DNA of 38,613 bases from Terriglobia bacterium. GTDB taxonomy: Bacteria; Acidobacteriota; Terriglobia; Terriglobales; Acidobacteriaceae. Positions 3,379 through 25,888 of this stretch are shown here, in pieces; position 1 is the first letter of the stretch, and every line of letters begins with the position of its first letter. Position numbers and translations under genes: made by a program. The notes beneath the pieces are model-generated. The model was not told where the DNA came from. It saw only the letters and a list, made by a program, of their open reading frames with translations, and ran no database searches. The stretch spans positions 1 through 38,613 of the forward strand of contig JAJPHW010000028.1 of the NCBI GenBank assembly GCA_021325035.1, written 5' to 3'.

Positions 3379-3492
3379 TAGGTTGCTACTCCTCGGAAAG
3401 ATGACTGGAACTGATTATTGTATGAGAGTACAGAGCGTTGAGCTGCTAACCGAGGTAACAGAGAAGGTGCCGAGCGTTCCTGATTTTTTTGC

Positions 3493-3510
3493 AGCCTGCG
3501 ACCGCAGGCT
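3493..3510 (+). terminator. Hairpin with T-tract, oriented against both flanking genes
   Basis: AGCCTGC (3493-3499) pairs with GCAGGCT (3504-3510) around GACC and is followed by AATTTTT on the plus strand, the form of an intrinsic terminator reading rightward. Both neighbours read leftward, and an A-tract rather than a T-tract follows the stem on the minus strand. It could stop antisense transcription entering the thioredoxin-fold gene, or simply be a palindromic repeat. Confidence 0.5.
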
Positions 3511-3523
3511 AATTTTTCGACCC

Positions 3524-4021
3524 TCAACCGGCGCGGAATTCCGCAATTTTCTCGTCAGGTCGGAATAAAGCCGCTGGCGGCTGAGTGTAAATGCCGCGGA
3601 CTTTTTCATAAATCTCTTCGATTTCTTTCTTCACCCATCCGACACTGGAAACTTCGATTGTGCCGTCAGGGGCGATCCAGAAAATTGTGGGAACGTTGGT
3701 TAGGCCGTACGCATTCGACACGGGATAGGATTTGGCTTCATCCAGGAGAACTGGGAATGTCACTCCGAATTGCTTGACGAATTTTTCCGTGTCTTTGGCG
3801 TCGTTCTGCGAAATTCCGACAATTGTTATCCGGCTTCCATCTTGAGTCTTGTAAATCCGTTCCAAGTAGGGAAAGGCGAACTGGCATACCGGGCAGGAGA
3901 CTTTGAAGAACGCTGCGACTACTGGGCCTTTTTTCAGTGCATCAGACAATGAGGATGACGCGCCCCGAAGGGAGTTCAATTTGAAGTCAGGTGCCGATGT
4001 GCCCACGGTTAACGCTGCCAT
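3524..4021 (-). CDS. Thioredoxin-fold protein, AhpC/TlpA-like (peroxiredoxin or thiol-disulfide type)
   Basis: Cytoplasmic thioredoxin-fold protein of the AhpC-TSA/TlpA group: an N-terminal TVGTSAPDFKL entry strand typical of the family, then VAAFFKVSCPVCQFAFPYLE with an SCPVC redox pair, then a cis-proline-type NVPTIFWIAPDG segment. No signal peptide or membrane helix is visible, so it likely works in the cytoplasm reducing thiols or peroxides. A GGAGGG ribosome site lies just upstream of the ATG at 4021, which is why I prefer it. An in-frame ATG at 4054 would add 11 residues (MWLRN...) but has no ribosome site. It lies downstream of mutY on the same strand, 75 bp away, so co-transcription is plausible. 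The CxxC spacing suggests oxidoreductase rather than classical 2-Cys peroxidase activity. Confidence 0.85.
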   Translation of the reverse strand: MAALTVGTSAPDFKLNSLRGASSSLSDALKKGPVVAAFFKVSCPVCQFAFPYLERIYKTQDGSRITIVGISQNDAKDTEKFVKQFGVTFPVLLDEAKSYPVSNAYGLTNVPTIFWIAPDGTIEVSSVGWVKKEIEEIYEKVRGIYTQPPAALFRPDEKIAEFRAG

Positions 4022-4096
4022 GTCCCGCCCTCCGAAGATATTTCGCAGCCACATAAATTAGGCCTACATTGATTTTAACGGATTAGCGCCGGGCTT

Positions 4097-5083: not shown

Positions 5084-5146
5084 GAGTCTGCCAAATTCTA
5101 ACAAGCTCTGGCGTTGTCACATGGGTGCCCACGCCACGCAAAGAGA

Positions 5147-5180
5147 TTGACCTGAGTCTTTGATTCACGAATAATCAAAG
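5147..5180 (+). promoter_or_regulatory. Promoter with overlapping inverted repeat (candidate operator)
   Basis: TTGACC (5147-5152) and AATAAT (5170-5175) are spaced 17 bp and read toward the 5241 gene. An inverted repeat, CTTTGATT (5158-5165) and AATCAAAG (5173-5180) around a 7-nt spacer, covers the spacer and -10 element. A protein bound there would block RNA polymerase. It also lies in the mutY upstream region, so control of both directions is possible. No regulator is identified. Confidence 0.6.
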
Positions 5181-5240
5181 TGCTCTGTTATCCGCGGCAA
5201 CGCGTGCCACTTTTCGCGTTACCCATGTCGAGGAATAGCC

Positions 5241-5468
5241 ATGAACGACTTCAATCGCAAAGTCGAGGAAGCTTCTGCGCGTCTGAATCAGACCATCGCC
5301 GAAGTGACAGCTCGTCTGGAGAAAGAATCTGCCGACTTGATTACGCACCTGAACGATCAGGTCGTTCCCAAAGTTCGCGAACATTCGAGCAAGGCGCTGC
5401 GAACAGCCGCCGAGAAAATGAACGAGCTAGCAGAGTACATGGAAAAGCACACGCCAGTGCACAAGTAG
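5241..5468 (+). CDS. Small helical coiled-coil protein, unknown function
   Basis: A 75-residue protein I do not recognise. It is almost wholly amphipathic helix, rich in Glu, Lys, Ala and Leu with no Cys or Trp, with heptad-like spacing (NRKVEEASARLNQTIAEVTA, then ARLEKESADLITHLNDQV), and ends EKHTPVHK. The length, charge pattern and a GAGGAA ribosome site 6-7 nt before the ATG support translation, and the promoter at 5147-5175 points at it. Its 3' end meets the rlpA reading frame: the TAG at 5466-5468 overlaps the first codons of the RlpA signal sequence. It could be a small cell-envelope or nucleoid-associated helical protein, or an upstream ORF coupling translation to rlpA. Confidence 0.65.
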   Translation: MNDFNRKVEEASARLNQTIAEVTARLEKESADLITHLNDQVVPKVREHSSKALRTAAEKMNELAEYMEKHTPVHK

Positions 5469-6280
5469 TCGCAACCATTTCCGCACTGGTGTTCGCAATG
5501 TTATTTTTGGGTGCATGTGGGCATCACAACACTTCGCAGAACAATATCCCCCCGGCCCCCCCAATTTCCCCAAGCGCTGAAAACGCCAGTTCTTCACCGG
5601 AAGTAGATCATCCGGCGCAATCAGCCCGGACAACATCACCGCGAACTGCATCGCCGAAAAAGCCGCGCAGTGATGAAGATGAAAATGACGACGAGGAAGC
5701 CGGCAGCCTCGACGTTCCCTCAAACTCCAAATCTTTGCTTGTTGAAAGTGGACTCGCCAGTTGGTATGGGCCGCCTTATCACAACCGCCGGGGAGCCAAT
5801 GGAAAAATCTACAACATGAATGGGATGACAGCTGCCCACCGTACATTGCCGTTAGGTTCAATTGTGCGCGTGACCAACACAAAAACCGGAGATTCGGCTG
5901 TTGTAGAAATTACCGACCGCGGGCCATTTGTCGAAGGACGGATTCTCGATCTTTCACTCGCAGCTGCAAAGAAAACTGGTGTGTGGCGTGCGGGTGTTGC
6001 GCCCGTAAAAATGGATGTGTTGCGAACTCCTGCACCGATCGATTCCGGTGGCAAGTGGGCCGTGCAGATTGGCGGATTTGAAGAAGAACACACGGCGAAC
6101 AAGCTGGCCAGTCATCTTTCAAAGCGCTATCAAACAGCGAAAGTCTTATGCTTTAGCAGTCCAGTGGGCGAGTGGTGGGTTCGCGTGCGGGTGCCCGACG
6201 ATGAAAAGAAACGCGCTGAAGAAATAGCCCACAAAACCGAGTCGCCGGAAGGCGGAGTTTTTCTGGTTCGCCTCGATTGA
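5465..6280 (+). CDS. rlpA: RlpA-family septal lipoprotein (DPBB + SPOR); start codon unresolved
   Basis: Lytic transglycosylase-like lipoprotein of the outer membrane that acts on denuded peptidoglycan at the septum. From 5465 the frame reads VVATISALVFAMLFLGACG, a lipoprotein signal core with lipobox LGAC, then a Pro/Ser/acid-rich linker. Next comes a double-psi beta-barrel (GLASWYGPPYHNRRGANG to RILDLSLAAAKKTG, with the conserved Asp in ITDRGPFVEGR), and last a C-terminal SPOR domain (WAVQIGGFEEEHTANKLASH onward). No ATG, GTG or TTG lies in frame between 5225 and 5489. The in-frame ATGs at 5225 and 5180 run antagonistically through the whole 5241 gene with non-protein-like composition, while GTG 5489 would truncate the signal peptide. 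The coordinates given are the stretch with real coding character. Confidence 0.8.
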   Translation, partial: VVATISALVFAMLFLGACGHHNTSQNNIPPAPPISPSAENASSSPEVDHPAQSARTTSPRTASPKKPRSDEDENDDEEAGSLDVPSNSKSLLVESGLASWYGPPYHNRRGANGKIYNMNGMTAAHRTLPLGSIVRVTNTKTGDSAVVEITDRGPFVEGRILDLSLAAAKKTGVWRAGVAPVKMDVLRTPAPIDSGGKWAVQIGGFEEEHTANKLASHLSKRYQTAKVLCFSSPVGEWWVRVRVPDDEKKRAEEIAHKTESPEGGVFLVRLD

Positions 6281-6314
6281 CAACTAGGCTGTTTCAATTC
6301 CAAACTGACAACTT

Positions 6315-6656
6315 ATGAGCGATTGTTTATTTTGCAAAATTATTGCTGGTGAGATTCCGTCGAAGAAAGTCTACGAAGATGACTATGTCTATGCTTTCGA
6401 TGATATTGATCCGAAAGCGCCCACGCATGTTCTCATTGTTCCAAAGAAGCATATTCGCGGAGTAAAAGAGGCGACGGAGCAAGATGCGGAAATCATTGGA
6501 CGCTGCCATGTCGCAGCCGCGCGTATCGCCCGCGAGCGCAACATCGAAAACGGATATCGAACTGTGTCGAATGTCGGTCCCGGCGCAGGCCAGTCGGTTT
6601 TCCACCTGCACGTTCATTTACTGGGCGGACGCCCTTTGAATTGGCCGCCGGGTTAG
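6315..6656 (+). CDS. HIT-family nucleotide hydrolase (HinT-like)
   Basis: Histidine-triad protein hydrolysing nucleoside phosphoramidates or adenylated substrates in the cytoplasm. The triad is HLHVHLLGG with H97, H99 and H101; H99 is expected to be the nucleophile by family convention. The N-terminal CLFCKI (C4, C7) with the His of PKKHI (H46) forms the zinc site common in HinT-type proteins. The 113-residue length and WPPG C-terminus are classical for bacterial HinT. It starts 34 bp after rlpA on the same strand and is convergent with the pseudo-receiver gene, whose stop is 33 bp away. Confidence 0.93.
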   Translation: MSDCLFCKIIAGEIPSKKVYEDDYVYAFDDIDPKAPTHVLIVPKKHIRGVKEATEQDAEIIGRCHVAAARIARERNIENGYRTVSNVGPGAGQSVFHLHVHLLGGRPLNWPPG

Positions 6657-6689
6657 CTCAGCGGATCGAAACAAAATCAGAAGCGCTTA

Positions 6690-7361
6690 TTAAATTGCAG
6701 GTTGTTTTTCTTCAAGCTCATCGGGAGCGCCGTGCCGCCGCAGCAACTGCGGCAAGTTCTGCGAGAACGCTGACCGCGGCAATACCATATCGCAACCCAC
6801 CTCATGCGCTTTTTGCTTCAAGTCGCCTTGCACATGAGACAGGAATCCGATGATGGAAGTTCCGCGCTTGAGCTTGGTTTTGAGCTTGGGAATGAGTGTT
6901 AATGGTTTGGCATTCGAGTTGTTGAGATCGAAAATAATGAGCGACGGCTTCTCCTCGCCATTGTGCTTTAAGCGCTCGTTCAGATCTTTCTCTTCTTTTA
7001 CGAATTCCACTTTGACGTTTAGCTTGCGCGCAGTTTCGTTAATTTTCGCCTGGAAGAACAAGTCGTCCACAAAAGCAAAAATCCGCGAATGGGCTGCCTC
7101 ATCAAGTTGGGGCAAAGGCTCGGGCTCAGGTTGGGGATAAGACGTCGCGAAGCCGGGCCGCTGACGGCCAGGTTTTGAGCCGTTGTTGCCGTTTAGCGCA
7201 GCGCGGTAGCTATGATCCATGGGCGCGCTGTAAACGCCGCCAGCCAAAGATTGACGGTCGCGGCCGGATGGTTGGCCGCCACGGTTTGACGGACGCCGAC
7301 CTCGGCGCCGCCTGTTTCTCCCTCCACCACCACCGGAGGGACGTCCGGGTCCTGCATTCAT
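6690..7361 (-). CDS. Arg/Gly-rich N-terminus fused to a degenerate receiver (CheY-like) domain
   Basis: Two-part protein with no recognised name. Residues 1 to about 90 are low complexity: GGGGGRNRRRRGRRP and neighbours resemble RGG-type nucleic-acid-binding tails, followed by a Pro/Glu-rich linker (PQPEPEPLPQ). Residues from about 92 on look like a receiver fold: RIFAFVDDLFFQAKI supplies the acidic pair, LIIFDLNN the usual phospho-acceptor Asp, IIGFLSHV the Ser/Thr strand. The usual Lys-Pro near the end is replaced (VLPRSAF), so phosphorylation switching may be lost. Such an arrangement could be an RNA- or DNA-binding regulator; this is inference. It is downstream of a structured intergenic segment at 7537-7600 and of osmC on the same strand. 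Confidence 0.72.
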   Translation of the reverse strand: MNAGPGRPSGGGGGRNRRRRGRRPSNRGGQPSGRDRQSLAGGVYSAPMDHSYRAALNGNNGSKPGRQRPGFATSYPQPEPEPLPQLDEAAHSRIFAFVDDLFFQAKINETARKLNVKVEFVKEEKDLNERLKHNGEEKPSLIIFDLNNSNAKPLTLIPKLKTKLKRGTSIIGFLSHVQGDLKQKAHEVGCDMVLPRSAFSQNLPQLLRRHGAPDELEEKQPAI

Positions 7362-7536
7362 ATTTTTCTCGTTAGTGAAGTGAACTGCTGCAAATCACCC
7401 AAGGGGGATTTGCACTACATATTTCTTAGATTTCGATCCGATGATCGCAACCGAAATGCTTGATGTTCATAAAACCCAACGCGGCTGAACATTTTCAGGA
7501 ATGACTTTTCCGTTTCACTGTTTGAAGCCGATGGGT

Positions 7537-7600
7537 ACAGGGCCTGCTAGGCGCATGGCCGTTGGGAACACCACTATGGTAGCGCGACCAGCGGCCCTGT
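7537..7600 (-). other. Long interrupted stem bounding a 64-nt segment (candidate structured RNA)
   Basis: On the plus strand ACAGGGCC (7537-7544), a bulged T, and GCT (7546-7548) pair with AGC (7590-7592) and GGCCCTGT (7593-7600): 11 base pairs with one bulge. A smaller possible hairpin, TGGT/ACCA, lies inside. It sits between osmC and the 7361 gene, both on the minus strand, about 175 nt before the latter's start. No T-tract follows on either strand, so it is not a plain terminator. The rest of the 260-bp gap (7362-7536, 7601-7621) shows nothing recognisable. Confidence 0.5.
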
Positions 7601-7621
7601 GCAAGTGCCTAAAGTTTGCTT

Positions 7622-8047
7622 TTAGCCTTCCAGCTTGGCATTCATGCTGATGTCAGCCTTCAAAACTTTGGAAACCGGGCATCCTTTTTCCGCCGCCTCT
7701 GCAAACTTTTGAAATGTCGCTGCATCCGCTCCGGGTACGCGACCCACAACATCGAGATGCACCGCAGTGATGGTCCAACCTGCCTCTTGTTTTTCCATGG
7801 TGAGCGTTGCCGCAGTCTCAATGCTCGCAGGCGGCAAATTTGCGCCACTTAGTTGCGCCGAGAGCGCCATCGAAAAACAGGCAGCATGAGCTGCTGCAAT
7901 CAATTCTTCGGGATTGGTTCCCGGAACGTTCTCAAAGCGTGTGCTGAATGAGTAGGGTGTATTGTTGAGAATGCCGCTTGCGGAAGAAATGACGCCCTTG
8001 CCGTCTTTTAGTCCGCCTTTCCAAACTGCGCTGGCCTTGCGTTGCAT
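7622..8047 (-). CDS. osmC: OsmC-family peroxiredoxin
   Basis: Thiol peroxidase reducing organic hydroperoxides in the cytoplasm, usually reduced by dihydrolipoamide or thiols. The two catalytic cysteines are present: C57 in AAHAACFSMAL and C123 in EKGCPVSKVL, with the family-conserved NPEELIAAAHA preceding the first. The 141-residue length, the KASAVWKGGLKDGKG N-terminus and spacing of the cysteines fit OsmC rather than Ohr. AGGAGAG lies 6 nt upstream of the ATG at 8047. It stands alone on the minus strand between the zinc-ribbon gene (81 bp upstream) and the pseudo-receiver gene, near other redox genes. Confidence 0.93.
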   Translation of the reverse strand: MQRKASAVWKGGLKDGKGVISSASGILNNTPYSFSTRFENVPGTNPEELIAAAHAACFSMALSAQLSGANLPPASIETAATLTMEKQEAGWTITAVHLDVVGRVPGADAATFQKFAEAAEKGCPVSKVLKADISMNAKLEG

Positions 8048-8128
8048 AAACTCTCCTATGTAATGGGAATTGGATTGCGAAATTGTGGTTCCGACTCAAT
8101 AAAAGTGAAAGGTTCTGTTTTGATTGTC

Positions 8129-8344
8129 TCAGTAAAAGTCAGAACAACTCAAGTAGAAGCCGCATTGTGAACAACTCAGTTTGCAGCGTTTTTCGCTCAA
8201 AAGTGCAGAACAGTTCGGGCAAAACCGCGACGGATCAGGACTGACCTTGCCCACACCTGGAGCTTTTGGCTCGTGATCAGAACCAGACTGATTCAAAATG
8301 GGGGCTGGCATACATGCATTATTTTCGCCAGCCGCAATATGCAC
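8129..8344 (-). CDS. Zinc-ribbon miniprotein, unknown function
   Basis: A small protein of about 71 residues with a C-terminal zinc-ribbon-like cysteine pattern: [19 protein letters not shown] followed by [13 protein letters not shown], giving two CxxC knuckles and further cysteines. I prefer the GTG at 8344 because AAGG lies 5 nt before it; an ATG at 8311 is an alternative. A longer frame back to 8479 exists but overlaps the NTF2-like gene by more than 100 bp. It follows that gene closely (25 bp) on the same strand and was probably co-transcribed with it. The cysteine-rich tail may bind zinc and nucleic acid, or mediate a protein contact; nothing more can be read. Confidence 0.6.
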
Positions 8345-8369
8345 AATTACCTTGTTACATTCCTGGCGT

Positions 8370-8798
8370 TTAGCGGATGGCAGGCAAGTCGCTGTTCCAG
8401 GCGTTGGCTTGCAGGAGCCATGCTCCCAAACGCCGCCACACGTGAACATATTTGCCGCGATCCACAACGCTCGCGCCATTTTCCAGACTGATGGTCAGCG
8501 TATAGCGGCCGATTTCAACGGCCATGTCCCCGGATGGATCCACACGCTGAGTTTCGAAGCGAAGGTCTGCGTAACCTGAGTCGCCCAAACCACGCAAACA
8601 AAGTTCAATGGCTCTGGGGCCTTGCGCCAGTTGCCGGTTCGGCGCCATATATACCCCGTTGCTGGCATAAAGCGCGCCAACCTGGTCGTAATTGCCGGTA
8701 TTGAAAGCGGTGCAGTAATCCTGAGCTAGACCGCGAATTGTAGATTCAACATCAAGAAAGCTTGGGGAAGGGCTGACGGCTGTGGGCCGGTACATCAC
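8370..8798 (-). CDS. NTF2-like / SnoaL-fold (DUF4440-type) protein
   Basis: A 142-residue protein with the cone-shaped NTF2-like fold pattern: an N-terminal helix ([20 protein letters not shown]) followed by [17 protein letters not shown], then alternating strands [20 protein letters not shown] and [20 protein letters not shown]. Members either catalyse small-molecule isomerisation or hydrolysis or just bind ligands; no catalytic dyad is certain here. A strong AAGGAGG lies 6-9 nt upstream of a GTG-ATG pair (8798/8795), so either may start. It is divergent from the persulfide dioxygenase gene and shares the 171-bp intergenic region bearing two palindromes, which hints at common control. Confidence 0.8.
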
Positions 8799-8870
8799 AC
8801 TGCCTCCTTAAGACCAAAACTGGAGCACCACAAGTCTCGGCCGGAGGCTAGTGGCTGAGGCAAGATTCTA

Positions 8871-8945
8871 ACGCAAAATGCGTGTCACGAAACAAGCAAA
8901 TTTTCCACCGCGCAATTTTGACTCAAAATGCGCGAGGTTTATGAT
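8871..8945 (+). promoter_or_regulatory. Promoter of the persulfide dioxygenase gene with two related palindromes
   Basis: TTGACT (8918-8923) and TATGAT (8940-8945) are spaced 16 bp, directed at the 8970 start. An inverted repeat covers the -35: CGCGC (8909-8913) and ATTTTG (8915-8920) pair with CAAAAT (8924-8929) and GCGCG (8930-8934), 11 bp with one bulged A. A second palindrome, ACGCA (8871-8875) and TGCGT (8879-8883), shares the core CAAAATGCG at a 50-bp interval. This looks like a two-site operator for an unidentified regulator. Confidence 0.65.
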
Positions 8946-8969: not shown

Positions 8970-10355
8970 ATGTATTTCGAACAGTTTTATTTCGGATGTC
9001 TGGCGCATGCCTCTTACTTGATTGGCTCCGAAGGCGAGGCAGCAGTAGTGGATCCGCAGCGCGATGTAGAGATTTATCTCAACACTGCCGCCGAACATGG
9101 ATTAAAAATCAGGCACATCTTTGAAACCCATTTGCATGCAGATTTTGTTTCCGGGCATCAAGAACTAGCCGCGCGGACTGGTGCGAAAGTTTATGTGGGA
9201 GCGAGCGCGGGTGCTACTTATCCACATGTGGATTTGCATGATGGATTCACCTTGAAAATGGGCAGTCTAAATATTGCCGCGTTGGAAACTCCAGGACACA
9301 CTCCGGAGGGCATTTCTCTGGTACTGACCGATTCTGAAAAATCCTCCCAACCCTATGCGGTACTCACGGGAGACACATTATTCATTGGAGATGTGGGCCG
9401 CCCGGATTTGTCGAAAACACACACTCCTGCTCAGCTCGCGGGGATGCTTTATGACAGCTTGCATAACAAGCTAATGAAGCTGCCAGATGCAACACTCGTA
9501 TATCCGGCACATGGCGCAGGTTCCTTGTGTGGGCGAAATATGCGTGCGGAACGTTCGTCCACCATCGGCACGGAGCGGCTGACGAATTACGCATTGCAGA
9601 TTCCGAGCCGTGATGAATTTGTGCGGCAACTTACATCGAACCTTCCCGCGCGTCCGGAATACTTCTCACAGGATGCAGAGATCAACCGCACGGGCGCCGG
9701 AGCCCTCGACTTGAGTGATTTGCCGGCAATCTCAGCTTCGGACTTGAAAATGAGAATGGAAAAAGGTGAGATCGCGCTCGATGTGCGATCTCCTGAGTTG
9801 TTTGCCGAAGGTCATGTTCCGGGTTCGATCAACATTGCTTTGTCGGGGCAATTTGCTTCATGGGCAGGAATAATTCTTGGCGTGTCTTCGAATCCGGTCT
9901 TGATTGCAGAAAATATGGATCAAATCTCTGAAGCGAGATTGCGGCTGGCAAGAGTTGGAATCGAGCATCCCGCAGGATATTTAGAAGGCGGTATTGCGGG
10001 ATGGAAAAGTGCAGGTTACGAACTGGCCCGGCTGAAACAAATTTCCGTGTCGGAATTGAATGATCGCTTGCAGAGCGTGAATGTGTTGGATGTGCGACGC
10101 GAACCGGAGTGGCAGGCAGGTCACATCGAAAATGCTGCATGGTGGCCCCTCGACAACTTCCGCGTATCGCCGCCGGAGGTGGATGACAGCGCGCCGCTCG
10201 CAGTGCACTGCAAAGGCGGCTATCGCAGCGTGATTGCATGCAGCCTGCTGGAGCGGGCAGGGTTTCATAACCTGCTCAACGTCACCGGCGGTTTCGATGC
10301 CTGGGAAAAAGCCGGGCTGCCGGTAACGCGCGAGCCAGCTCTTGCCACGAAGTAA
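8970..10355 (+). CDS. Persulfide dioxygenase-like metallo-beta-lactamase fused to two rhodanese domains
   Basis: Sulfur-detoxification enzyme of the ETHE1/CstB type. The N-terminal metallo-beta-lactamase domain (about 1-240) has FETHLHADFVSGH (H54, H56, D58), GHTPEGI and LTGDTLFIGDVGRPDL, the mononuclear iron set expected of persulfide dioxygenases that oxidise glutathione or CoA persulfide to sulfite. Two rhodanese domains follow. The first (about 255-350) has the ALDVRSPELFAEGHVPGS entry but no catalytic Cys where the loop should be (PVLIAENMDQ). The second (about 355-450) keeps HCKGGYRS with C414 and should transfer sulfane sulfur. GGAGAGG lies 8-9 nt before the ATG. The operator-bearing promoter and downstream terminator make it a single-gene unit. 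Confidence 0.92.
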   Translation: MYFEQFYFGCLAHASYLIGSEGEAAVVDPQRDVEIYLNTAAEHGLKIRHIFETHLHADFVSGHQELAARTGAKVYVGASAGATYPHVDLHDGFTLKMGSLNIAALETPGHTPEGISLVLTDSEKSSQPYAVLTGDTLFIGDVGRPDLSKTHTPAQLAGMLYDSLHNKLMKLPDATLVYPAHGAGSLCGRNMRAERSSTIGTERLTNYALQIPSRDEFVRQLTSNLPARPEYFSQDAEINRTGAGALDLSDLPAISASDLKMRMEKGEIALDVRSPELFAEGHVPGSINIALSGQFASWAGIILGVSSNPVLIAENMDQISEARLRLARVGIEHPAGYLEGGIAGWKSAGYELARLKQISVSELNDRLQSVNVLDVRREPEWQAGHIENAAWWPLDNFRVSPPEVDDSAPLAVHCKGGYRSVIACSLLERAGFHNLLNVTGGFDAWEKAGLPVTREPALATK

Positions 10356-16664: not shown

Positions 16665-16778
16665 CGCGTGCTTCTCGCGAATGGTTTGCATCCGGCGGCA
16701 ACTTGTTGTAATCCATATATTTTTGGCGTCATCGCCCACAAAGAGCAACAGACGAAGATTTCGTTCGAGAAAACCAAT

Positions 16779-18236
16779 TTGAAACTCAGAAATTCATTGT
16801 TGATCTTACGGAAATTACTGATTTTTACAGGCTTAGGCGCTTCTTTCGCCGCCGGGCAGTCTATGCCAAATGCGCCCAGCGCATCAGGCTTGCCGGCCAG
16901 CAATAGCTTCAATCTCGGCCAATATACGGGCAGCGTACCCGAAGGGAAGGCAACTGGCCAGGTATTGCAGTTGTCCTTTCTGGACGCAATGGAACGTGGG
17001 CTGCGCAACAACCTGGGCTTGCTCATTCAAAGCGACAACACCTTGAATGCTCGCGGCGAAAAGTGGAAAGAGTTGAGCAATCTGCTGCCGAATGTTTCCG
17101 CTTCGGTCACGCAAAGCGCAGAGCAGATTGACTTGGCGGCATTAGGTTTTCGCATCAAGGCGCCGGGTTTTCCATCCGTGATTGGTCCCATCGGAGTTTT
17201 CCAGAGCGGCATATATCTCCAACAAACAGTCTTCGATCTTCACCAGTTTGATAAAACACGCAGCGCGCGGGCCAATGAAGAAGTGGCCAAACTGAATTAC
17301 AAAGATGCACGCGACTTGGTGGTTCTGGCGACATTGAATGCGTATTTGCAGTCAGTCTCCTACGAAGCGACGGTGGAGACTTCGCAAGCGGACGTAGATA
17401 CTGCGCAAGCCCTCTACGACAAAGCGGCCGATCAGCAAAAGGCCGGGGTTAGTCCGGCAATTGACACTTTGCGTGCGCGGGTCGAACTGCAAACCCGGCA
17501 ACAGCGGCTGATCGCTGCCAAAAATAATTTTGCCAAGCAGAAACTGACGTTGGCACGGGTGATTGGATTGCCCAGCGGGCAGGAATTTGAGCTGACGGAC
17601 AAAGCGCCGTATTCTCCCCTGACCCCGGACACGCTCGATCAGGCGTTACAGCGCGCTTACACTTCCCGCTCTGACTATCTGGCTGCGGTGCAGCAACTGC
17701 GGGCGGCGCAGTTGGCGCGGCGGGCAGCGACCGAAGAGCATTACCCCACTCTGGGAATTGCTGGAGATTACGGGGATGCCGGTGTGAATGTGGGCAACTC
17801 CCACGGAGTGTTCCAGGTCGGCGCGACGCTTACCATCCCTATTTTTGCCGGCGGAAAGACGCATGGAGATGTACTTGAAGCCGAAGCTGCATTGCGACAA
17901 AGCCGGCAGCAGCTGGAAAATCTCCGCGCGCAAATTGACTACGATGTTCGCTCCACCATGCTCGATCTGCAATCCGCTGCCGAGCAAGTAGAAGTGGCAC
18001 GTAGCTCGGTGGACTTGGCAAAGGAAACTTTGGCGCAGGCCCGCGACCGGTTTGCCGCGGGCGTCACCGACAACCTGGAAGTCGTGCAAGCGCAGGACTC
18101 GGTTGCCTCGGCAAATGAAGCTTATATCTCAAGTTTGTACGCACACAATCTGGCAAAAGTCGCGTTGGCGCGTGCCACCGGTTTTGCCGAAGAGGGTGTG
18201 AGACTTTATCTGCAAAGCGCACAACAAGGCAAATAA
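16779..18236 (+). CDS. TolC-family outer-membrane efflux channel
   Basis: Outer-membrane channel of the tripartite efflux pump encoded by the next two genes. The body shows two similar helical halves typical of TolC/OEP proteins: first half with NNLGLLIQSDNTLNARGEKW and long coiled helices, second half with LATLNAYL-type helices and repeated QARDRFAAGVTDNLEVVQAQ ending SSLYAHNLAKVALARATG. The signal peptide is best explained by the TTG start at 16779, giving MKLRNSLLILRKLLIFTG then GASFAAGQS. The frame is open back to GTG 16668, but residues before 16779 are not signal-like and would lie on top of the probable promoter. It ends 1 bp before emrA, so the three genes form one operon. Confidence 0.88.
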   Translation: MKLRNSLLILRKLLIFTGLGASFAAGQSMPNAPSASGLPASNSFNLGQYTGSVPEGKATGQVLQLSFLDAMERGLRNNLGLLIQSDNTLNARGEKWKELSNLLPNVSASVTQSAEQIDLAALGFRIKAPGFPSVIGPIGVFQSGIYLQQTVFDLHQFDKTRSARANEEVAKLNYKDARDLVVLATLNAYLQSVSYEATVETSQADVDTAQALYDKAADQQKAGVSPAIDTLRARVELQTRQQRLIAAKNNFAKQKLTLARVIGLPSGQEFELTDKAPYSPLTPDTLDQALQRAYTSRSDYLAAVQQLRAAQLARRAATEEHYPTLGIAGDYGDAGVNVGNSHGVFQVGATLTIPIFAGGKTHGDVLEAEAALRQSRQQLENLRAQIDYDVRSTMLDLQSAAEQVEVARSSVDLAKETLAQARDRFAAGVTDNLEVVQAQDSVASANEAYISSLYAHNLAKVALARATGFAEEGVRLYLQSAQQGK

Positions 18237-18237
18237 T

Positions 18238-19503
18238 ATGGCCCAGACGACAGAAACACCGACACAAGAAGCTCCAACAACCGGCCAACAGACGCCACTA
18301 CCATCCTCCGAGCGCGATCTGCGCCGGACTCCACCCAAAGCTGCAAATCCACGATTGCGCTTGTTTCTGATCATCGGCGCGGTGGTTTTGGTTGTGGGAG
18401 GAATACTGCTCTGGTTACACCTCTCGAGTTATGAATCCACCGACGATGCGCAGATTGACGGACACCTCAACCCGATCAGTACGCGGGTAAACGGCCACGT
18501 GACAAAGTTATTGGTCAATGACAATCAATATGTGGATGCAGGTACGCCACTGATTCAAATCGATCCCACCGATTATCAAGTCGCGCTCGACAACGCAAAA
18601 GCAGAATACGAAGACGCGCTGGCCAATGCTCGCGCCGCCCAAGCCAATGTTCCCGTCACGACGGTGAGCACCGGCAGCCAGATTTCCGGAGCTTCTGCGG
18701 ATGTTCAAAATTCTCAGGCGGGCATCGGCGCTGCAAAACAACAATACGATGCGGCCAAAGCGCAGCTAGTCCAGGCCCAAGCCAACAATGTGAAGGCGCA
18801 GAATGATCTTGTCCGCTACAAGCAACTCGTGGACAAACAAGAAATTTCACAGCAGCAGTATGATCAGGCCGTAGCTTCGGCGCAAGCGGATGCGGCCGCC
18901 GTAGAAGCGGCCCGCGCTTCGGCTGCTGCCGCCGAGCAGCAGGTCGTGCAGGCGCAAAGCCGCTTGGCGTCTTCAGAGGCAAATTTGCGTTCTGCGCAAA
19001 CTGCGCCCCAGCAAGTGACTGCTGTCCGTGCCCGTGCCGACGCCGCCCAGGCGGAGGTACTGAGCAAGAAAGCAGCCTTGGATCAGGCGCAACTCAATCT
19101 GCAATACACGCAAATCCTCGCGCCGGTCAGCGGAATCGTTACCAATCGCACGGTGGAAGTGGGGCAAAACGTCTCCATCGGTCAGGAGATGATGAAGCTT
19201 ATCAATCTCGACGATATCTGGGTCACGGCCAACTTTAAGGAAACTCAACTCCGGCATATGCAAGCCGGGCAGCCGGTGGAAATCTACGTGGATTCCAATG
19301 GCAAGACCTACAAAGGCCACGTGCAGAGCATTTCCGGAGCGAGCGGCGCCGTGACTAGTCTGCTGCCGCCGGAAAATGCGACAGGCAACTACGTCAAAGT
19401 TGTGCAGAGAATTCCAGTGAAAATTATTTTTGACGCGGGTGAAACCCGCGAGCACGTGCTGCGTCCCGGCATGTCGGTGGAACCCAAGGTCCAGATTAAA
19501 TGA
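18238..19503 (+). CDS. emrA: HlyD/EmrA-family membrane fusion protein
   Basis: Periplasmic adaptor joining the MFS pump to the TolC channel. A cytoplasmic proline-rich tail (1-37) precedes one TM segment (about 41-61, LFLIIGAVVLVVGGILLWLH). Then come the biotinyl-lipoyl strand STDDAQIDGHLNPISTRVNG, a long alanine- and glutamine-rich alpha-helical hairpin (about 115-280), the second lipoyl half (ILAPVSGIVTNRTVEVGQNV), and a beta-barrel ending near PGMSVEPKVQIK. The 421-residue length suits EmrA with a slightly extended N-terminus. Its stop codon overlaps the start of emrB in an ATGA, showing translational coupling. Substrate is unknown. Confidence 0.92.
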   Translation: MAQTTETPTQEAPTTGQQTPLPSSERDLRRTPPKAANPRLRLFLIIGAVVLVVGGILLWLHLSSYESTDDAQIDGHLNPISTRVNGHVTKLLVNDNQYVDAGTPLIQIDPTDYQVALDNAKAEYEDALANARAAQANVPVTTVSTGSQISGASADVQNSQAGIGAAKQQYDAAKAQLVQAQANNVKAQNDLVRYKQLVDKQEISQQQYDQAVASAQADAAAVEAARASAAAAEQQVVQAQSRLASSEANLRSAQTAPQQVTAVRARADAAQAEVLSKKAALDQAQLNLQYTQILAPVSGIVTNRTVEVGQNVSIGQEMMKLINLDDIWVTANFKETQLRHMQAGQPVEIYVDSNGKTYKGHVQSISGASGAVTSLLPPENATGNYVKVVQRIPVKIIFDAGETREHVLRPGMSVEPKVQIK

Positions 19504-21089
19504 GTTCGGCAAGCCTGACCATGGACGCGATGCCTGAATCGCGTCCAGCAATCAATCCCTGGATTATTGCCGTCGTCGTCACCATGGCTACGTTTATGGA
19601 GGTGCTGGATACCAGCATCGCCAACGTTGCCTTACCCCACATCGCCGGCAATCTTTCTGCCGGAACCGACGAAAGCACATGGGTGCTCACGTCATATCTC
19701 GTTTCTAACGCCATCGTGCTTCCGCTCAGCGGATGGATCTCATCCATCATTGGCCGCAAGCGTTTTTACATGACTTGCGTTGCCATTTTTACAATTAGCT
19801 CATTTCTTTGCGGCATTGCTCCTAATCTCGGCATGTTGATTTTTTTCCGCGTGCTGCAAGGTGCGGGCGGAGGCGGGTTACAGCCCAGCGAACAATCCAT
19901 TCTTGCCGATACATTTCCTCCAGCAAAACGTGGCATGGCTTTTGCGGTGTACGGTCTTGCAGTTGTCATGGCCCCAGCCATCGGGCCCACTCTCGGTGGG
20001 TGGATTACCGATAACTACAACTGGCGCTGGATTTTCTTTATCAACATCCCCGTGGGAATGCTCTCCCTGCTGTTGACGTCACGCCTGATTCAAGATCCGG
20101 CGAATGTCGTAAGAAAAAAATTCTCAGAAATGAAAGTGGACTATGTTGGCCTGGGCTTCCTCGCGCTTGGCCTTGGAACCTTGCAAGTCATCCTCGATAA
20201 GGGCCAGCGCGACGACTGGTTTGAGTCCCACTTTATTCTGACGCTCGCAGTTATTTCGGCTGCGGCATTGATTTTCACGCTTTTCTGGGAGTGGAAGCAC
20301 AAAGATCCGATCATTGATTTGCACCTGTTCAAAGATCGGACTTTCGCGATGGCCAACCTGATGATGTTTATGGTTGGTTTTACGCTTCTCTCGAGTACGT
20401 TGTTGTTGCCGCAATTCACGCAGACATTGCTCGGCTACACAGCTGAACGCGCAGGCGAAGCGCTTACTCCTGGCGGCTTGACGTTGGTGGTGCTGATGCC
20501 GCTCGTCGGCTTTTTGCTCACGCGCTATGATCCGCGGCGCCTGGTTGTATTTGGATTCATTTCGGTCTCTACATCATTGTTTTTTATGACGCACTTCAAT
20601 CTTGATGTGGATTTCCGCACGCTGACGATTGCCCGTATGCTCCAGGCCGGCGGCTTGGGTTTCTTGTTCGTGCCCATCAACACCATGGCTTACAGTTATT
20701 TGCCGCGAAATAAAAACAACAACGCTTCTGGTTTGATCAACCTTTCGCGCAACATTGGCGGCAGCGTCGGAATTTCTGTGGTTACCACCATGCTGGAACG
20801 GCGCACCCAGCATCATCTGGTGAACATGTCGAGCCATCTTTCTCCTGCCAATCCGAATATGCAGCGCACGTTGCAAGGCATGTCGCAAGCGCTTCAGGCT
20901 CGCGGCTTTTCATCGCCGGATGCCATGCACCGCGCTTACATGCTCATGCAGAATACCGTTTTCCGCCAAGCTGCCATGCTCGCCTACATTGATAATTTCT
21001 GGATGTTGGCAATTGGGATCCTATGCATGGTTCCCCTCGTGTTCCTCATGAAGCGGCCACAGGCAGGCGGAAGCATCGCTGTCCATTAG
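19500..21089 (+). CDS. emrB: DHA2-family MFS drug:H+ antiporter (EmrB/QacA type)
   Basis: Inner-membrane proton-driven exporter with 14 predicted transmembrane helices. The DHA2 motif D1 is visible in helix 1 (ATFMEVLDTSIANVALPHIA), motif A after helix 2 (GWISSIIGRKRFY), motif B in helix 4 (FFRVLQGAGGGGLQPSEQS) and motif C in helix 5 (VVMAPAIGPTLGGWI). The 529-residue length is normal for EmrB. It overlaps emrA by 4 bp. With TolC and EmrA it should pump hydrophobic toxicants across both membranes. The cytidylate-kinase-like gene follows 29 bp downstream and could share the transcript. Confidence 0.93.
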   Translation: MSSASLTMDAMPESRPAINPWIIAVVVTMATFMEVLDTSIANVALPHIAGNLSAGTDESTWVLTSYLVSNAIVLPLSGWISSIIGRKRFYMTCVAIFTISSFLCGIAPNLGMLIFFRVLQGAGGGGLQPSEQSILADTFPPAKRGMAFAVYGLAVVMAPAIGPTLGGWITDNYNWRWIFFINIPVGMLSLLLTSRLIQDPANVVRKKFSEMKVDYVGLGFLALGLGTLQVILDKGQRDDWFESHFILTLAVISAAALIFTLFWEWKHKDPIIDLHLFKDRTFAMANLMMFMVGFTLLSSTLLLPQFTQTLLGYTAERAGEALTPGGLTLVVLMPLVGFLLTRYDPRRLVVFGFISVSTSLFFMTHFNLDVDFRTLTIARMLQAGGLGFLFVPINTMAYSYLPRNKNNNASGLINLSRNIGGSVGISVVTTMLERRTQHHLVNMSSHLSPANPNMQRTLQGMSQALQARGFSSPDAMHRAYMLMQNTVFRQAAMLAYIDNFWMLAIGILCMVPLVFLMKRPQAGGSIAVH

Positions 21090-21118: not shown

Positions 21119-21790
21119 ATGTATAGCGTAATCACGGTCGAACGGGAATTTGGCTGCGGCGGCGGCGAGATCGCGGCAAAGCTCGCCCAGCGTTTGCAAT
21201 GGAAACTCTGGGACCAGGCCCTGACCGAAGAGATCGCCAAGCTCGCTGACGTGGATTGCGCAGCGGTGGAAAAAAAACAGGAAAAGATTGACAGCACCTT
21301 CCATCGCTTGGCGAAAATCTTCTGGCGCGGCAGCTATGAAGGCGCGGTAAAGACCGGAGCCGAGTTCTTCGACGCGGACTGCATGGTAGAAATGGGTGGG
21401 CAGGTCATGCAAAGGGCGGCGGCCGAAGGAAAGTGTGTAATTGTCGGACGCGGCGCGCCTTATTTTTTGCGGGAGCATCCTGACGCCTTCCACGTTTTTT
21501 TGTATGCCCCTTACGCCGAAAAATTACGCCGGCTGCGCGAAAACGGCAGCCGGATTCCGGGCAATCCCGAAACTCTACTAAATACCGTGGACCGCGACCG
21601 CATTGCCTTTGTGAAGCGCTATTTCAATGCGGACTGGCCCACGCGTTCGCTCTATCACTTGATGGTGAATACGGCGGTTGGCGACGAAATTGTTATTACA
21701 ACAATTCTCGAAGCCATGCGTTCGCTCGAGCGCAAACCGACGCAAACCCTGACCAGTTTCCCCCACCAGGGCGAACAAGCCAGCGTGTAA
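21119..21790 (+). CDS. Cytidylate kinase-like P-loop protein
   Basis: A 223-residue member of the cytidylate-kinase-like family (AAA_26 group) found in many bacteria outside the normal cmk locus. The N-terminus YSVITVEREFGCGGGEIAAK carries the variant P-loop, here rich in glycine without the usual GKS/T. A mobile lid-like Arg segment (VDRDRIAFVKRYFNADW) and the GRGAPYFLRE strand follow. True CMP kinases phosphorylate CMP/dCMP; these relatives have uncertain substrates. AGGGGCGGC precedes the ATG at 21119. It lies 29 bp after emrB and converges with the cupredoxin gene, 3 bp between stops. Confidence 0.82.
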   Translation: MYSVITVEREFGCGGGEIAAKLAQRLQWKLWDQALTEEIAKLADVDCAAVEKKQEKIDSTFHRLAKIFWRGSYEGAVKTGAEFFDADCMVEMGGQVMQRAAAEGKCVIVGRGAPYFLREHPDAFHVFLYAPYAEKLRRLRENGSRIPGNPETLLNTVDRDRIAFVKRYFNADWPTRSLYHLMVNTAVGDEIVITTILEAMRSLERKPTQTLTSFPHQGEQASV

Positions 21791-21793
21791 ATT

Positions 21794-22381
21794 TCATTTC
21801 GTGAGTGTGAAATCAGCCTTGCCGCTCCCCGCGACGTTGACGGGCTTGGTTTGTGACTTCGCACCTTCGTGCCATGCGACCACGCTATAAGCGCCATCCG
21901 GGACGTTGTCGATCTTGTAATTCCCCTCATCATCGGTCAGGGCGAAATAGGGTGTCGGCACCACAACGATGTAGCCAGTCATCTCTGGGTGCACATTGCA
22001 TAACAGCGGGACCGCACCCACAGTGTCGAACTTGAAGGCGCGCTTCTCGTTTTGCGGCCAGGTACCGAGATTATGCGCAAGCTTCTTGTTGCCCCCGATG
22101 GAGGGCCAGAAAACGTTGTGCGCGACACTGTCGCTGTTCAGAAATTCCACGGTGCTGCCCTGCTGTACCGGAAGAATGTGCGGCTGGAACATCAATCGCC
22201 TTTGTGCCATCACCGGGTGCTCCTCCGTAGCGGAAAAAGTTTTTCCGCTGATCGCATCCACGTAAACGACCGACGCTCCCGAAACTCCCGTGACCTTGCC
22301 GCTAAGTGTGGCGGCGCTGGCAGGCAAGCTCATCATTGCCGCTATCGCCATCGCCACTATTAAAATTAAACTGCGTATCAT
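21794..22381 (-). CDS. Exported cupredoxin with carboxypeptidase-regulatory-like domain
   Basis: Periplasmic or exported type-1 copper protein. A signal peptide occupies 1-23 (MIRSLILIVAMAIAAMMSLP, cut near ASA). The copper ligands are in the classic order: H88 in DSVAHNVFWP, then C128, H131 and M134 in LLCNVHPEMTG. The tail YFALTDDEGNYKIDNVPDG to YSVVAWHEG looks like a carboxypeptidase-regulatory-like (CarboxypepD_reg) beta sandwich, so the protein may be a fold fused around or after the copper site. It is the last gene of the three-gene minus-strand unit with the haem-motif barrel 45 bp upstream. Electron transfer to or from the cytochromes is inferred from context only. Confidence 0.85.
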   Translation of the reverse strand: MIRSLILIVAMAIAAMMSLPASAATLSGKVTGVSGASVVYVDAISGKTFSATEEHPVMAQRRLMFQPHILPVQQGSTVEFLNSDSVAHNVFWPSIGGNKKLAHNLGTWPQNEKRAFKFDTVGAVPLLCNVHPEMTGYIVVVPTPYFALTDDEGNYKIDNVPDGAYSVVAWHEGAKSQTKPVNVAGSGKADFTLTK

Positions 22382-22426
22382 TTTTCTCTCCTCGTCATTT
22401 CCTATTTGTGATTTCTTCCCTGCGCA

Positions 22427-23797
22427 TCAGAAAAGGATTTTTGCATCCAGATAAATCGTGTTGTTGGCGTTCGCGTTGCGGCCTGAACCGTCGTAGTTGG
22501 TCGCGGCGCCGTTGAAGCGCGTGTAACCGGTGTATTGCGCCGCGAGTTGCAAGTTCTGCCACGGCCAATACGAGACGGTCGCAATGTACCCGGCGCTTCT
22601 TGGGCTGGCATTGGCGAAGCCTGATACCGCAGCAGGTGCAAACAACAGCGCATCGGCAGTGCCGCTCGTATTGAACCAACCGAACGTGCCTGAGTAGCGA
22701 TTGCCGAAGTGATATTCAACATTGGGTTGAAAGGTGTTTAGGTGATGCGCGCTCTGCGATGCCGCGCCCGCAGCCACGCTCGCCAGCAAATCAGAGTTTT
22801 CACGAATGTATGTGGCCCGGAATGACAGCACGTCTTTGCGGAATAACGTCCGGTCAACCTGAGTATCCAGGGCCCAGTCGGTGTAATCATCTTCGAGGCC
22901 GCTGACCGCATTAGGGGTACTCCGCATGTGCATTCCATAACCGCCGATTTCATACTGCGTCTTCGCGGTTAATTCCTGCCAGGCGACGCGCCAGTAGGGA
23001 GCAACGCCACGGATGTTAAATGCAGACCCAACTCCAGGATTCGGCTGTGTCCCGCCCACGTGGTCAGAGCGGTAAATCGCTGCGTCTAAATACAGATGGT
23101 TGTTCCACATCGCATAGGCGCCAATTCCTGCAACATCCTGCCCTAAAGTCCCATTAATGATGGCAGCAGCGCCAGGGGTGGGTGCAACATCGCTTGCGAC
23201 CCAGGGATATCCCCATGCCGGTGTGCTATTCCAAAGATCTTCTACGGTCGGGTTGTTGTTGATGTCCAGGCCGTAAACCAGTTCCTTCCCATTGAGCTTT
23301 GTCTTATTCGCATAGCGGACATCCGTGTTATCAATGCTGAAATGGTCGCCTTGGGCGTCGTACGTCAATTGAACAAAGCTGCCGACATGGCTTGTCCAAG
23401 CTCCGGAAAGAAACAGCGATATATCCTGAGGAAATTCGAAGTTTCCATTTTGGGTAGCTGGCACCGGTGATTTGGTCGAGGTAAACGAAGTTTCGAACAT
23501 TACGGCAAGCGGCAGCGAAGCAAGAAGATCAAGCGCTGCATGCGTTCCGCTTCCATCCGCCGTGATGGTTTTAGTGTCAACTGCTCTATCCACGTATCCG
23601 AGCAGCTTGAATCTTCGTCCGGCAGGGTTGAGTTCCGGAGGGTTGTAGTGGCAGCCGCTGCACGGCAAGCCTGTCTGCCGCGCAAAACTTGGGACCGCCA
23701 ATGCACTGGGCGGATTCACCACCGCCAAAAAAAGCAAAAGTAAAACTGGAACTGTCGCAAGTGCTGTATGGAATGCTTTATTTGAGTGCTTCATCAT
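22427..23797 (-). CDS. Exported outer-membrane-type beta-barrel candidate with one CxxCH haem motif
   Basis: Large exported protein of about 456 residues. From the ATG at 23797 (GAGG 7 nt upstream, and a second ATG at once after) it has a signal peptide to about residue 34 (SALA), then CSGCH at C46, C49, H50 in the run GLPCSGCHYNPPELNPAG. The rest is rich in aromatic, Gly, Asn and alternating strand-like segments (for example VDRTLFRKDVLSFRATYI, QNLQLAAQYTGYTRF), suggesting a beta-barrel of porin kind. The frame extends back to 23905 but that part overlaps the upstream gene and lacks signal character. One haem-like motif in front of a barrel is unusual. Middle gene of the redox operon; 55 bp after the cytochrome gene. 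Confidence 0.78.
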   Translation of the reverse strand: MMKHSNKAFHTALATVPVLLLLFLAVVNPPSALAVPSFARQTGLPCSGCHYNPPELNPAGRRFKLLGYVDRAVDTKTITADGSGTHAALDLLASLPLAVMFETSFTSTKSPVPATQNGNFEFPQDISLFLSGAWTSHVGSFVQLTYDAQGDHFSIDNTDVRYANKTKLNGKELVYGLDINNNPTVEDLWNSTPAWGYPWVASDVAPTPGAAAIINGTLGQDVAGIGAYAMWNNHLYLDAAIYRSDHVGGTQPNPGVGSAFNIRGVAPYWRVAWQELTAKTQYEIGGYGMHMRSTPNAVSGLEDDYTDWALDTQVDRTLFRKDVLSFRATYIRENSDLLASVAAGAASQSAHHLNTFQPNVEYHFGNRYSGTFGWFNTSGTADALLFAPAAVSGFANASPRSAGYIATVSYWPWQNLQLAAQYTGYTRFNGAATNYDGSGRNANANNTIYLDAKILF

Positions 23798-23852
23798 CTC
23801 TGTCCTCAGATTGTGTAATTTAGAAAAAATTAGACCTTGTAAACTGGAGTGT

Positions 23853-25091
23853 TCAGGCGCGTTTACGTTCATCCTCCACAAGCTCGAATGCTTCAGCGTG
23901 TTCATGTGCGATGGCAGGGATCACGACTGCGGGCTTTCGCGTGAGCCGGGAAAATTCGCGTACGGTGAAAACGAATCCCGCGAATACGAGCCCGAGGGAA
24001 AAAGCTGTCGCGAGCGAAAAGACGACGGAAGTCATCCTGCTGAAACCGCCGTTTCCGCGCTGCGGGCCATTCGAAGTGCGCGTATTCCCAATAACGGCCG
24101 CAGATGAAGCCTGAGCGCGTTCAACAACCGGTGATTCCAGCGAAGGAGAATCTTCCGGAGGAAACTGCGTCAGATATAGGTACACATCCGCAGCTTCCTC
24201 TTCTGTGAGGTAACGAAAAACGGGCATCCTGCCGCTGGAAATCGTGTGCAATGGCCCCATGGCGATCGGCGCACCATGCGTCACTTTCCGGATCAAGCCT
24301 GCTTGCGTGGTTCTTGCCCTGAGTGTGCTTAGTGGCGGGATGGCTCCGCGTAGCAGATCTTCGGAACTTGGATTTATTCCGGTCGCATCGTGGCAAATAT
24401 GGCAGGTGGATTTAACAATCATTTCTCCTTTACGGGTGTGAAGCTCACTGATGGAAGTCTGCGCTTTCTCCGCGCCCGGCATGTCCGCGAGTTGCTTTAG
24501 GTATGCAATCAGAGCGCGAATTTCTGCGTCGCTTAAGTAATTAAAAGCAGGCATGCTCTCACCGCCGTTATGCAAGCGTTGCAATAACGCAGCGTTGGCC
24601 TCGCGTGCCATTTTGTATGCATCGGTTTTGCTCATCTCCATGCCTACACTTCTCATGCGTTGCAGGGTGAGCGGAGCAGATGTGGCTCGCACGGGATTGA
24701 TGACGGAATTGATTTCCGGTGGCGCGCCTTGCCCGGATGCGCCATGGCATCCCTGGCAATTCATGCGATAGAGATCGAAGCCAGAGATCACGTCCGCGCG
24801 GTTCGAAACGGACCGCTGCGGCAGCGCCATTTCGTACTGCGAATTAGACGAAGGCAAAATCTGTGAATCCGCCGGCCCCAACTGCCAGCTCGACCGTCCC
24901 ATGCTGGTCTGATCAAAGCTGCGATTCAGATGTTTCAACCAGCTCGGTCCTGAAACGGGCGTGACGATGGAATTGGTTTTAGGAGAAGTCTGCGCGTGCA
25001 GCGCTGTAAAAGTGACCAGTAATAGCGCTACCAATAATTTCCCGTTCGACTTTTCGTGTACAGATGTCTTTTGGAAAAACATGCTTGCCAT
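23853..25091 (-). CDS. Membrane-anchored dihaem cytochrome c
   Basis: Exported c-type cytochrome with two haem domains and a C-terminal membrane anchor. A hydrophobic signal segment lies near 18-33. Haem 1: C112, C115, H116 (NCQGCHG) with M180 in GGESMPAFNYLSD as likely sixth ligand. Haem 2: C230, C233, H234 (TCHICHD) with M289 in SGRMPVFRYLTEEE. Each domain ends in the YLSDAEIRALIAYLK or YLTEEEAADVYLYL helix common to class I cytochromes. A TM helix (about 353-376) near the C-terminus would hold the haems on the periplasmic side with a short cytoplasmic tail. The start may be M1 (25091) or M4. First gene of a three-gene minus-strand operon; the 272 bp upstream (25092-25363) is shared with the divergent Nudix gene. 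Confidence 0.88.
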   Translation of the reverse strand: MASMFFQKTSVHEKSNGKLLVALLLVTFTALHAQTSPKTNSIVTPVSGPSWLKHLNRSFDQTSMGRSSWQLGPADSQILPSSNSQYEMALPQRSVSNRADVISGFDLYRMNCQGCHGASGQGAPPEINSVINPVRATSAPLTLQRMRSVGMEMSKTDAYKMAREANAALLQRLHNGGESMPAFNYLSDAEIRALIAYLKQLADMPGAEKAQTSISELHTRKGEMIVKSTCHICHDATGINPSSEDLLRGAIPPLSTLRARTTQAGLIRKVTHGAPIAMGPLHTISSGRMPVFRYLTEEEAADVYLYLTQFPPEDSPSLESPVVERAQASSAAVIGNTRTSNGPQRGNGGFSRMTSVVFSLATAFSLGLVFAGFVFTVREFSRLTRKPAVVIPAIAHEHAEAFELVEDERKRA

Positions 25092-25363: not shown

Positions 25364-25888
25364 ATGGCAACGCCGAAATTGCTGCGTTTTGCACTGCCCA
25401 TGCAAGTCGCCGCTGTGTGCTACCGCCGCCGTGGAAACGGAGTTGAATTCTTGCTGGTCAACAGCAACGGCGGGAATAAGTGGACCTTCCCCAAAGGATC
25501 TCCGGAAACAACCATGTCTCACAGCCGGGCCGCCGAGAAAGAAGCCTGGGAAGAGGCGGGCGTGCGCGGACGTATTGAAACCCGCCATTTTCATCTTTAC
25601 TTACATTCCAAAGGCGTTTTCTGGAAGCCGCCCGGCGTGCGCGAATTCGTCGTCAAGTCGTTCTTGATGGAAGTGACGGAAAACGGGCATCCCCACGAAA
25701 ACGATCGCAATCCGACCTGGTTCTTGCCCGAGAATGCCCGGAAAATTTTGGCCAAGGGCCGAGAAGTCAAATACGCCAAGGAAATTCAGTCGGTGATTGA
25801 CCGAGCCCTGGAATTGATTTCACCTCCTCACTCGGCTGGCCGCGTAAAACGCGGGACTGACGATCTTTTTTCCGCGCCTATTCTGTAG
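25364..25888 (+). CDS. Nudix hydrolase with partly degenerate Nudix box
   Basis: Cytoplasmic Nudix-fold protein of 174 residues, closest in layout to the diadenosine-polyphosphate or diphosphoinositol-phosphate group. The box begins GSPETTMSHSRAAEKEAWEE: the metal-binding EE pair and following AGV are intact, but the conserved Glu at position 7 of the box is Met and the usual Arg before the catalytic Glu is Lys. The residues before it, KWTFPKGSPE, match the family. The substrate is unknown and activity may be changed. GGGGAGG lies 5 nt before the ATG at 25364. The ABC-F gene follows 43 bp downstream on the same strand. Confidence 0.85.
   Translation: MATPKLLRFALPMQVAAVCYRRRGNGVEFLLVNSNGGNKWTFPKGSPETTMSHSRAAEKEAWEEAGVRGRIETRHFHLYLHSKGVFWKPPGVREFVVKSFLMEVTENGHPHENDRNPTWFLPENARKILAKGREVKYAKEIQSVIDRALELISPPHSAGRVKRGTDDLFSAPIL

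Follow-up and report, generated by a model that had tools for sequence, protein, structure and literature searches.

Gene content of the locus

The window, a stretch of 38,613 nucleotides from a soil Acidobacteriota genome of 3.86 Mb, contains three genes in close succession on its minus strand. They encode a dihaem cytochrome c, a predicted fused cytochrome-porin and an exported cupredoxin, and are separated by gaps of 55 bp and 45 bp. An earlier note on this DNA had described these closely spaced genes, and their open reading frames and gaps proved correct. The haem motifs, membrane anchor and copper ligands that it had reported are likewise all in place, with the anchor at residues 356-374 in our reading. 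Opposite-strand genes unrelated to the trio lie on either side of it, and the genes inspected in the window include no oxidase or complex III gene adjoining it. The features are as follows.

16668-21089, opposite strand: efflux set, beyond the nucleotide-kinase-like gene (named by reading the sequence)
21119-21790, opposite strand: nucleotide-kinase-like gene (named by reading the sequence)
21794..22381, minus strand: exported type-1 cupredoxin gene, 195 aa (Pfam, alignment)
21803..21955, minus strand: C-terminal carboxypeptidase-regulatory-like domain of the cupredoxin (PF13620, E 2.2e-8)
21980..22000, minus strand: copper loop C-N-V-H-P-E-M (C128, H131, M134), a short CxxHxxM (motif and alignment)
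22427..23797, minus strand: predicted Cyc2-family fused cytochrome-porin gene, the middle gene, 456 aa (signature, model)
22433..23509, minus strand: predicted 16-stranded beta barrel, residues 97-455 (AlphaFold2 model, PDB comparison)
23648..23692, minus strand: Cyc2 signature with haem motif, P-S-FARQT-GLP-CSGCH (pattern search)
23853..25091, minus strand: dihaem cytochrome c gene, 412 aa, C-terminal membrane anchor (open frame, Pfam, homologues)
23970..24026, minus strand: hydrophobic anchor, residues 356-374 of the dihaem cytochrome (sequence and homologues)
24390..24404, minus strand: second haem motif CHICH, residues 230-234 (motif reading)
24744..24758, minus strand: first haem motif CQGCH, residues 112-116 (motif reading)
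25364-25888, opposite strand: Nudix-like gene (named by reading the sequence)

Elsewhere in the window, a plus-strand gene at 8970-10355 has metallo-beta-lactamase and rhodanese domains and, from a reading of its sequence alone, the look of a persulfide dioxygenase.

Pfam models Cytochrome_CBB3 and Cytochrom_C each match the dihaem protein twice (Cytochrome_CBB3 with E 1.8e-19 over two stretches). The cupredoxin matches Copper-bind at 22.8 bits, against a cut-off of 21.2, and its best NCBIfam matches are amicyanin/plastocyanin models, far below cut-off. All four copper ligands (H88, C128, H131 and M134) are present, and an alignment of 48 cupredoxins shows them conserved in 47. The carboxypeptidase-regulatory-like domain is an addition to what was previously noted. 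The short CxxHxxM loop presumably differs from that of rusticyanin. Three comparisons indicate that these features are more than chance: the middle protein has relatives, its haem Cys and His residues are conserved, and so are the copper ligands of the cupredoxin.

The middle protein is a predicted Cyc2-type porin

A profile search of Pfam and NCBIfam matched no family to the middle protein, which therefore looks anonymous. A sequence search for related solved structures also found none; its sole match, a cadherin, was dismissed as chance.

Keffer et al. defined Cyc2 by the motif AXPXFAR[Q/K][T/Y], which they found unique to this family, a single CXXCH, a PXL four residues downstream, a 16-strand porin and a length of at least 365 residues (PMC8406198). 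After its signal peptide, the middle protein begins with AVPSFARQTGLPCSGCHYNPPEL. Upstream of the haem site it carries AVPSFARQT, which matches the motif. Its only CxxCH is CSGCH at residues 46-50, PEL at residues 54-56 is a PxL four residues past the haem motif, and the length is 456 aa. Three residues (GLP) separate the T of the motif from the first Cys; how this relates to the published "5 amino acids upstream" depends on the counting convention (PMC8406198). A relaxed form of the Cyc2 signature, searched for as a DNA pattern, gave just three hits across the 3.86 Mb genome, the one in the middle gene among them, and no hit in the reversed control.

Relatives with 52-76% identity occur in 80 Acidobacteriota loci. 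The strict motif is present in 13 of them, with F/Y or A/S variants in 55 more, and the haem Cys and His residues as well as PEL are invariant across 16 aligned relatives.

We used the alignment of these 16 relatives as input for AlphaFold2, which predicted exactly 16 strands (pLDDT 67, pTM 0.73). A comparison of the model with the PDB returned porins throughout, and the best rows are 16-strand porins with Z of about 20.5-20.7 and rmsd of 3.5-3.8. Among these are OprO (4rjw; Z 20.6, rmsd 3.5, 313 aligned) and OprP (2o4v), the folds or templates on which Cyc2 was modelled (PMC8406198). Rows less than 1 apart in Z count as ties; because the best values tie, the model shows a porin fold but not any particular porin. 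The earlier note had called this protein a barrel candidate, and the prediction bears that out. The N-terminal haem segment has a pLDDT below 50, so the placement of the haem is outside the reach of the model. Judged by its sequence and predicted fold, the middle protein is a member of the Cyc2 family, in which a monohaem cytochrome is fused to a 16-strand outer-membrane porin.

More distant relatives (31-37% identity, at least 80% of the query covered) are plasmid-borne, in Acidithiobacillus ferrooxidans, Acidiphilium, Caballeronia and others. None of these is the characterised Cyc2. The A. ferrooxidans example (CP084173.1, 7890-9257; L105) is a Cyc2-like barrel annotated as a hypothetical protein, with the variant signature AIPAFAAQTG..CSACH and a c-type cytochrome gene downstream; an Acidiphilium cryptum plasmid has an equally good match. 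A c-type cytochrome is near most of the plasmid-borne relatives that we read, and Caballeronia also has a gene for a high-potential iron-sulfur protein.

Gene neighbourhoods across Acidobacteriota

A cupredoxin of the same family is encoded within 1 kb of the porin, on the same strand, in 41 of the 80 Acidobacteriota loci, and elsewhere in the examined stretch in 14 further loci (55/80 in all). These and the following neighbour counts over the 80 loci are lower bounds because contig ends cut some loci.

In 35 of the 80 loci, the contig stretch that carries the porin also encodes an FAD/4Fe-4S NAD(P) oxidoreductase, a Rieske protein, a b6-like cytochrome b, a subunit IV-like protein, an octahaem cytochrome c and a monohaem protein. 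This set takes the place of the dihaem gene in most relatives whose neighbourhood is intact. Other porins have a Rieske/cytochrome b-c set (8 loci), an ACIII-like set (6) or cox genes (4) nearby, so that respiratory-complex genes accompany the porin in 53 of 80 loci. A single run of Cyc2 porin, cupredoxin and Rieske/octahaem set is seen at L150 (4059-13043) and also at L027, L037, L050 and others. The cytochrome b and subunit IV-like proteins of such runs matched models of ExtP and ExtQ, from a selenite/tellurite operon, below the cut-offs.

Homologues of the dihaem cytochrome are present in only 3 of the 80 porin loci (L030, L032 and L055), and a search of 61 genomes gave matches in only four of them. 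These seven loci are the basis of what follows. The membrane anchor is found only in the window, L030 and L032, and is missing from L055, L137, L138 and L139. A cupredoxin gene adjoins the dihaem gene in all seven loci and was called by similarity in six. The seventh (L137) is a weaker case, because the gene caller preferred an antisense frame there; its cupredoxin is deduced from 0.7 kb left open between the porin and dihaem genes and from the antisense pattern seen elsewhere. A porin with the Cyc2 signature lies by the dihaem gene in six of the seven loci. At the exception, L139 (G005:C9, 8931-10451), cupredoxin and dihaem cytochrome occur together with no adjoining Cyc2 porin. The L137 and L138 porins belong to a different Cyc2 subfamily (AIPAFSRQYG..CSTCH), and at both loci the Cyc2-cupredoxin-dihaem set is followed by a gene for an exported protein of about 440-460 aa (L137 1921-3303, L138 4103-5416).

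Given the constant presence of the cupredoxin, we rejected the view of the dihaem cytochrome as a chance neighbour, and given the rarity of the dihaem gene, that of a fixed three-gene operon. The earlier note had made its proposal depend on the three genes staying together in homologous operons. The porin-cupredoxin pair does so in about two thirds of the 80 loci, whereas the whole trio falls short of that standard because of the dihaem gene. On the porin tree, the window porin is placed within those of the Rieske/octahaem type, and at least three changes are needed to account for pairing with a dihaem cytochrome. For these reasons the dihaem cytochrome looks like an exchangeable outlet and no part of a fixed design.

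Other Cyc2 and respiratory gene sets in the same genome

The genome that contains the window has two further loci with a Cyc2-type porin.

Contig C160 (L102, G000:C160), 91-8884, minus strand: operon with a Cyc2-like gene, dihaem c, cupredoxin, coxB, coxA, two coxC-like genes, a small coxD-like gene and ctaB (last few names by similarity and reading)
Contig C128 (L101, G000:C128), 2655-4031, plus strand: third Cyc2-signature porin, 60% identical to the window porin

The C160 Cyc2 is distant from that of the window (ALPAFARKYG..CSACH), and its arrangement with cox genes recurs in about ten related genomes, with small gene-calling gaps. The C128 porin stands alone at its locus; close relatives of it (L056, L060, L070) adjoin genes for a c-type cytochrome, a Rieske protein and cytochrome b. 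The one Rieske/cytochrome b-c set of the genome is on C122, apart from the C128 porin. An ACIII-like set and an oxidase are on C17, and another oxidase is on C8. The only cytochrome b of the relevant Pfam family is of another type than that of the Rieske/octahaem set. We detected no RuBisCO in this genome, and Calvin-cycle autotrophy is therefore not indicated.

Comparison with known systems

Known members of the iron-oxidase family Cyc2 include Acidithiobacillus Cyc2, Mariprofundus Cyc2 PV-1 and Leptospirillum Cyt572 (PMC8406198, PMC7029218). The window porin shares with the family a signal peptide, AxPxFAR[QK][TY], one CxxCH, PxL, a predicted 16-strand barrel and a length above 365 aa, but belongs to an acidobacterial clade with partner genes of its own.

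The rus operon of A. ferrooxidans comprises cyc2, cyc1, coxBACD and rus (PMC10654088). Like the window trio, it brings together Cyc2, a dihaem cytochrome c and a copper protein, although the gene order differs, the window dihaem cytochrome is anchored at its C-terminus and the window cupredoxin has an extra C-terminal domain in comparison with rusticyanin. Genes for an aa3-type oxidase are not beside the trio; the cox genes are instead at C160, whose operon adds coxBAC and ctaB and thus matches rus in content. The earlier note had proposed a different design, in which a barrel has its own N-terminal CxxCH and a copper partner. However, a barrel of this kind is what defines Cyc2 (PMC8406198), and a copper protein accompanies Cyc2 in the Acidithiobacillus rus system (PMC10654088). 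Both the fused haem-barrel and the copper partner of Cyc2 are therefore already known.

MtrAB, PioAB and MtoAB also provide a barrel route for electrons through the outer membrane. They do so with a larger, haem-free barrel that has a decahaem cytochrome inside, whereas the window protein has one haem motif fused to a predicted 16-strand barrel. The MtrAB type is recognised by a multihaem cytochrome together with a large haem-free barrel; here, the barrel has a haem motif and its partner is dihaem.

The operon found in 35 of the 80 relatives recalls complexes of the anammox bacterium Kuenenia, in which Rieske/cytochrome b proteins occur with hexa- or octahaem c and an NAD(P) oxidoreductase (PMC12954380). 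Both have a Rieske protein, b6-like cytochrome b, subunit IV-like protein, octahaem c and FAD/FeS NAD(P) oxidoreductase. This is a resemblance of parts: the acidobacterial operon adds the Cyc2 porin and cupredoxin, and it is absent from the window.

Proposed function and direction of electron flow

The earlier note had seen in these genes the parts of an electron path across the outer membrane, which the predicted barrel and its partners make plausible. It had the electrons leaving the cell, but characterised Cyc2 proteins take electrons in. Inward flow is thus most likely, as it follows from the Cyc2 identity, and in Acidithiobacillus, Cyc2 likewise has a dihaem cytochrome and a copper protein as partners. 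We propose, with a probability of roughly 0.6, that the trio is a Cyc2-type electron-uptake module through which a donor in solution, most likely Fe(II), supplies electrons to an oxidase in the inner membrane. Once inside the barrel, the reduced donor would pass its electron to the haem, close to the periplasmic opening. From there, the cupredoxin and the dihaem cytochrome, in either order, would carry the electron across the periplasm to the oxidase, and that of the C160 Cyc2 set would be a good candidate sink. The dihaem cytochrome may stand in for the Rieske/cytochrome b/octahaem complex of many relatives.

By analogy, Fe(II) is the best candidate donor because its oxidation has been shown for one Cyc2 of every published cluster (Keffer et al., PMC8406198). 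The same authors called the function of cluster 3 "most uncertain" (PMC8406198), and earlier work assigned Cyc2 matches in environmental metagenome-assembled genomes to this cluster. The same barrel with the same inward flow might instead serve Mn(II), reduced humics or another soluble reductant as a supplementary energy source for a heterotroph. The apparent lack of RuBisCO would suit such a life, a role for Cyc2 in the Mn(II) lithotrophy of Manganitrophaceae has also been proposed, and the diverse family has many members in organisms without known iron oxidation. Given that every biochemically tested Cyc2 oxidises Fe(II), however, we regard a different donor as unlikely.

Flow in the outward direction, with the dihaem cytochrome and cupredoxin passing respiratory electrons via the barrel to Fe(III) or humics, is less likely, and we consider it quite improbable. 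The porins of relatives do lie beside complexes that oxidise quinol (Rieske/cytochrome b, ACIII-like) and could push electrons outward, and Acidobacteria in peat are suspected iron reducers, on the grounds of decahaem cytochromes. Yet the single haem, the narrow barrel, a typically high-potential copper carrier and the terminal oxidase in the sister operon all fit uptake, and the potential of Cyc2 PV-1 (+208 mV) also argues against export. We know of no outward conduit with a Cyc2 barrel. Finally, the solitary C128 paralogue and the lack of an adjoining oxidase or complex III gene at the trio could point to a periplasmic redox or metal-handling set with no respiratory role, for example copper or iron detoxification with a haem-tagged channel. 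The respiratory-complex genes that accompany the porin in most homologous loci make this very doubtful.

Implications for soil Acidobacteriota

Previous work noted Acidobacteria among Cyt572 homologues (PMC10654088). The literature that we searched has no account of the acidobacterial operons described here, which is weak evidence as its journal coverage is partial, and it seems to say hardly anything about Cyc2-based electron uptake by soil Acidobacteriota. We tentatively suggest, as a possibility short of an even chance, that soil Terriglobales have a large separate Cyc2 clade whose members exchange partners and use at least four outlets. These would be a dihaem cytochrome c (as in the window), a cytochrome c oxidase, an ACIII-like complex and a Rieske/cytochrome b/octahaem complex with an NAD(P) oxidoreductase.

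Few soil bacteria are more abundant than Acidobacteriota. What part they play in the iron cycle has mostly been guessed from multihaem cytochromes, which point to iron reduction. The opposite claim, that dissolved Fe(II) or a donor like it supplies electrons to many of these bacteria, becomes testable with a Cyc2 barrel that has its own copper and haem partners and comes in several versions per genome. Variable outlets beside one porin clade would reveal the rewiring of such paths, and the Rieske/octahaem outlet, if our suggestion is true, would link the uptake of external electrons directly to the production of NAD(P)H. Extracellular electron uptake would then be a common, so far undescribed trait of abundant soil Acidobacteriota.
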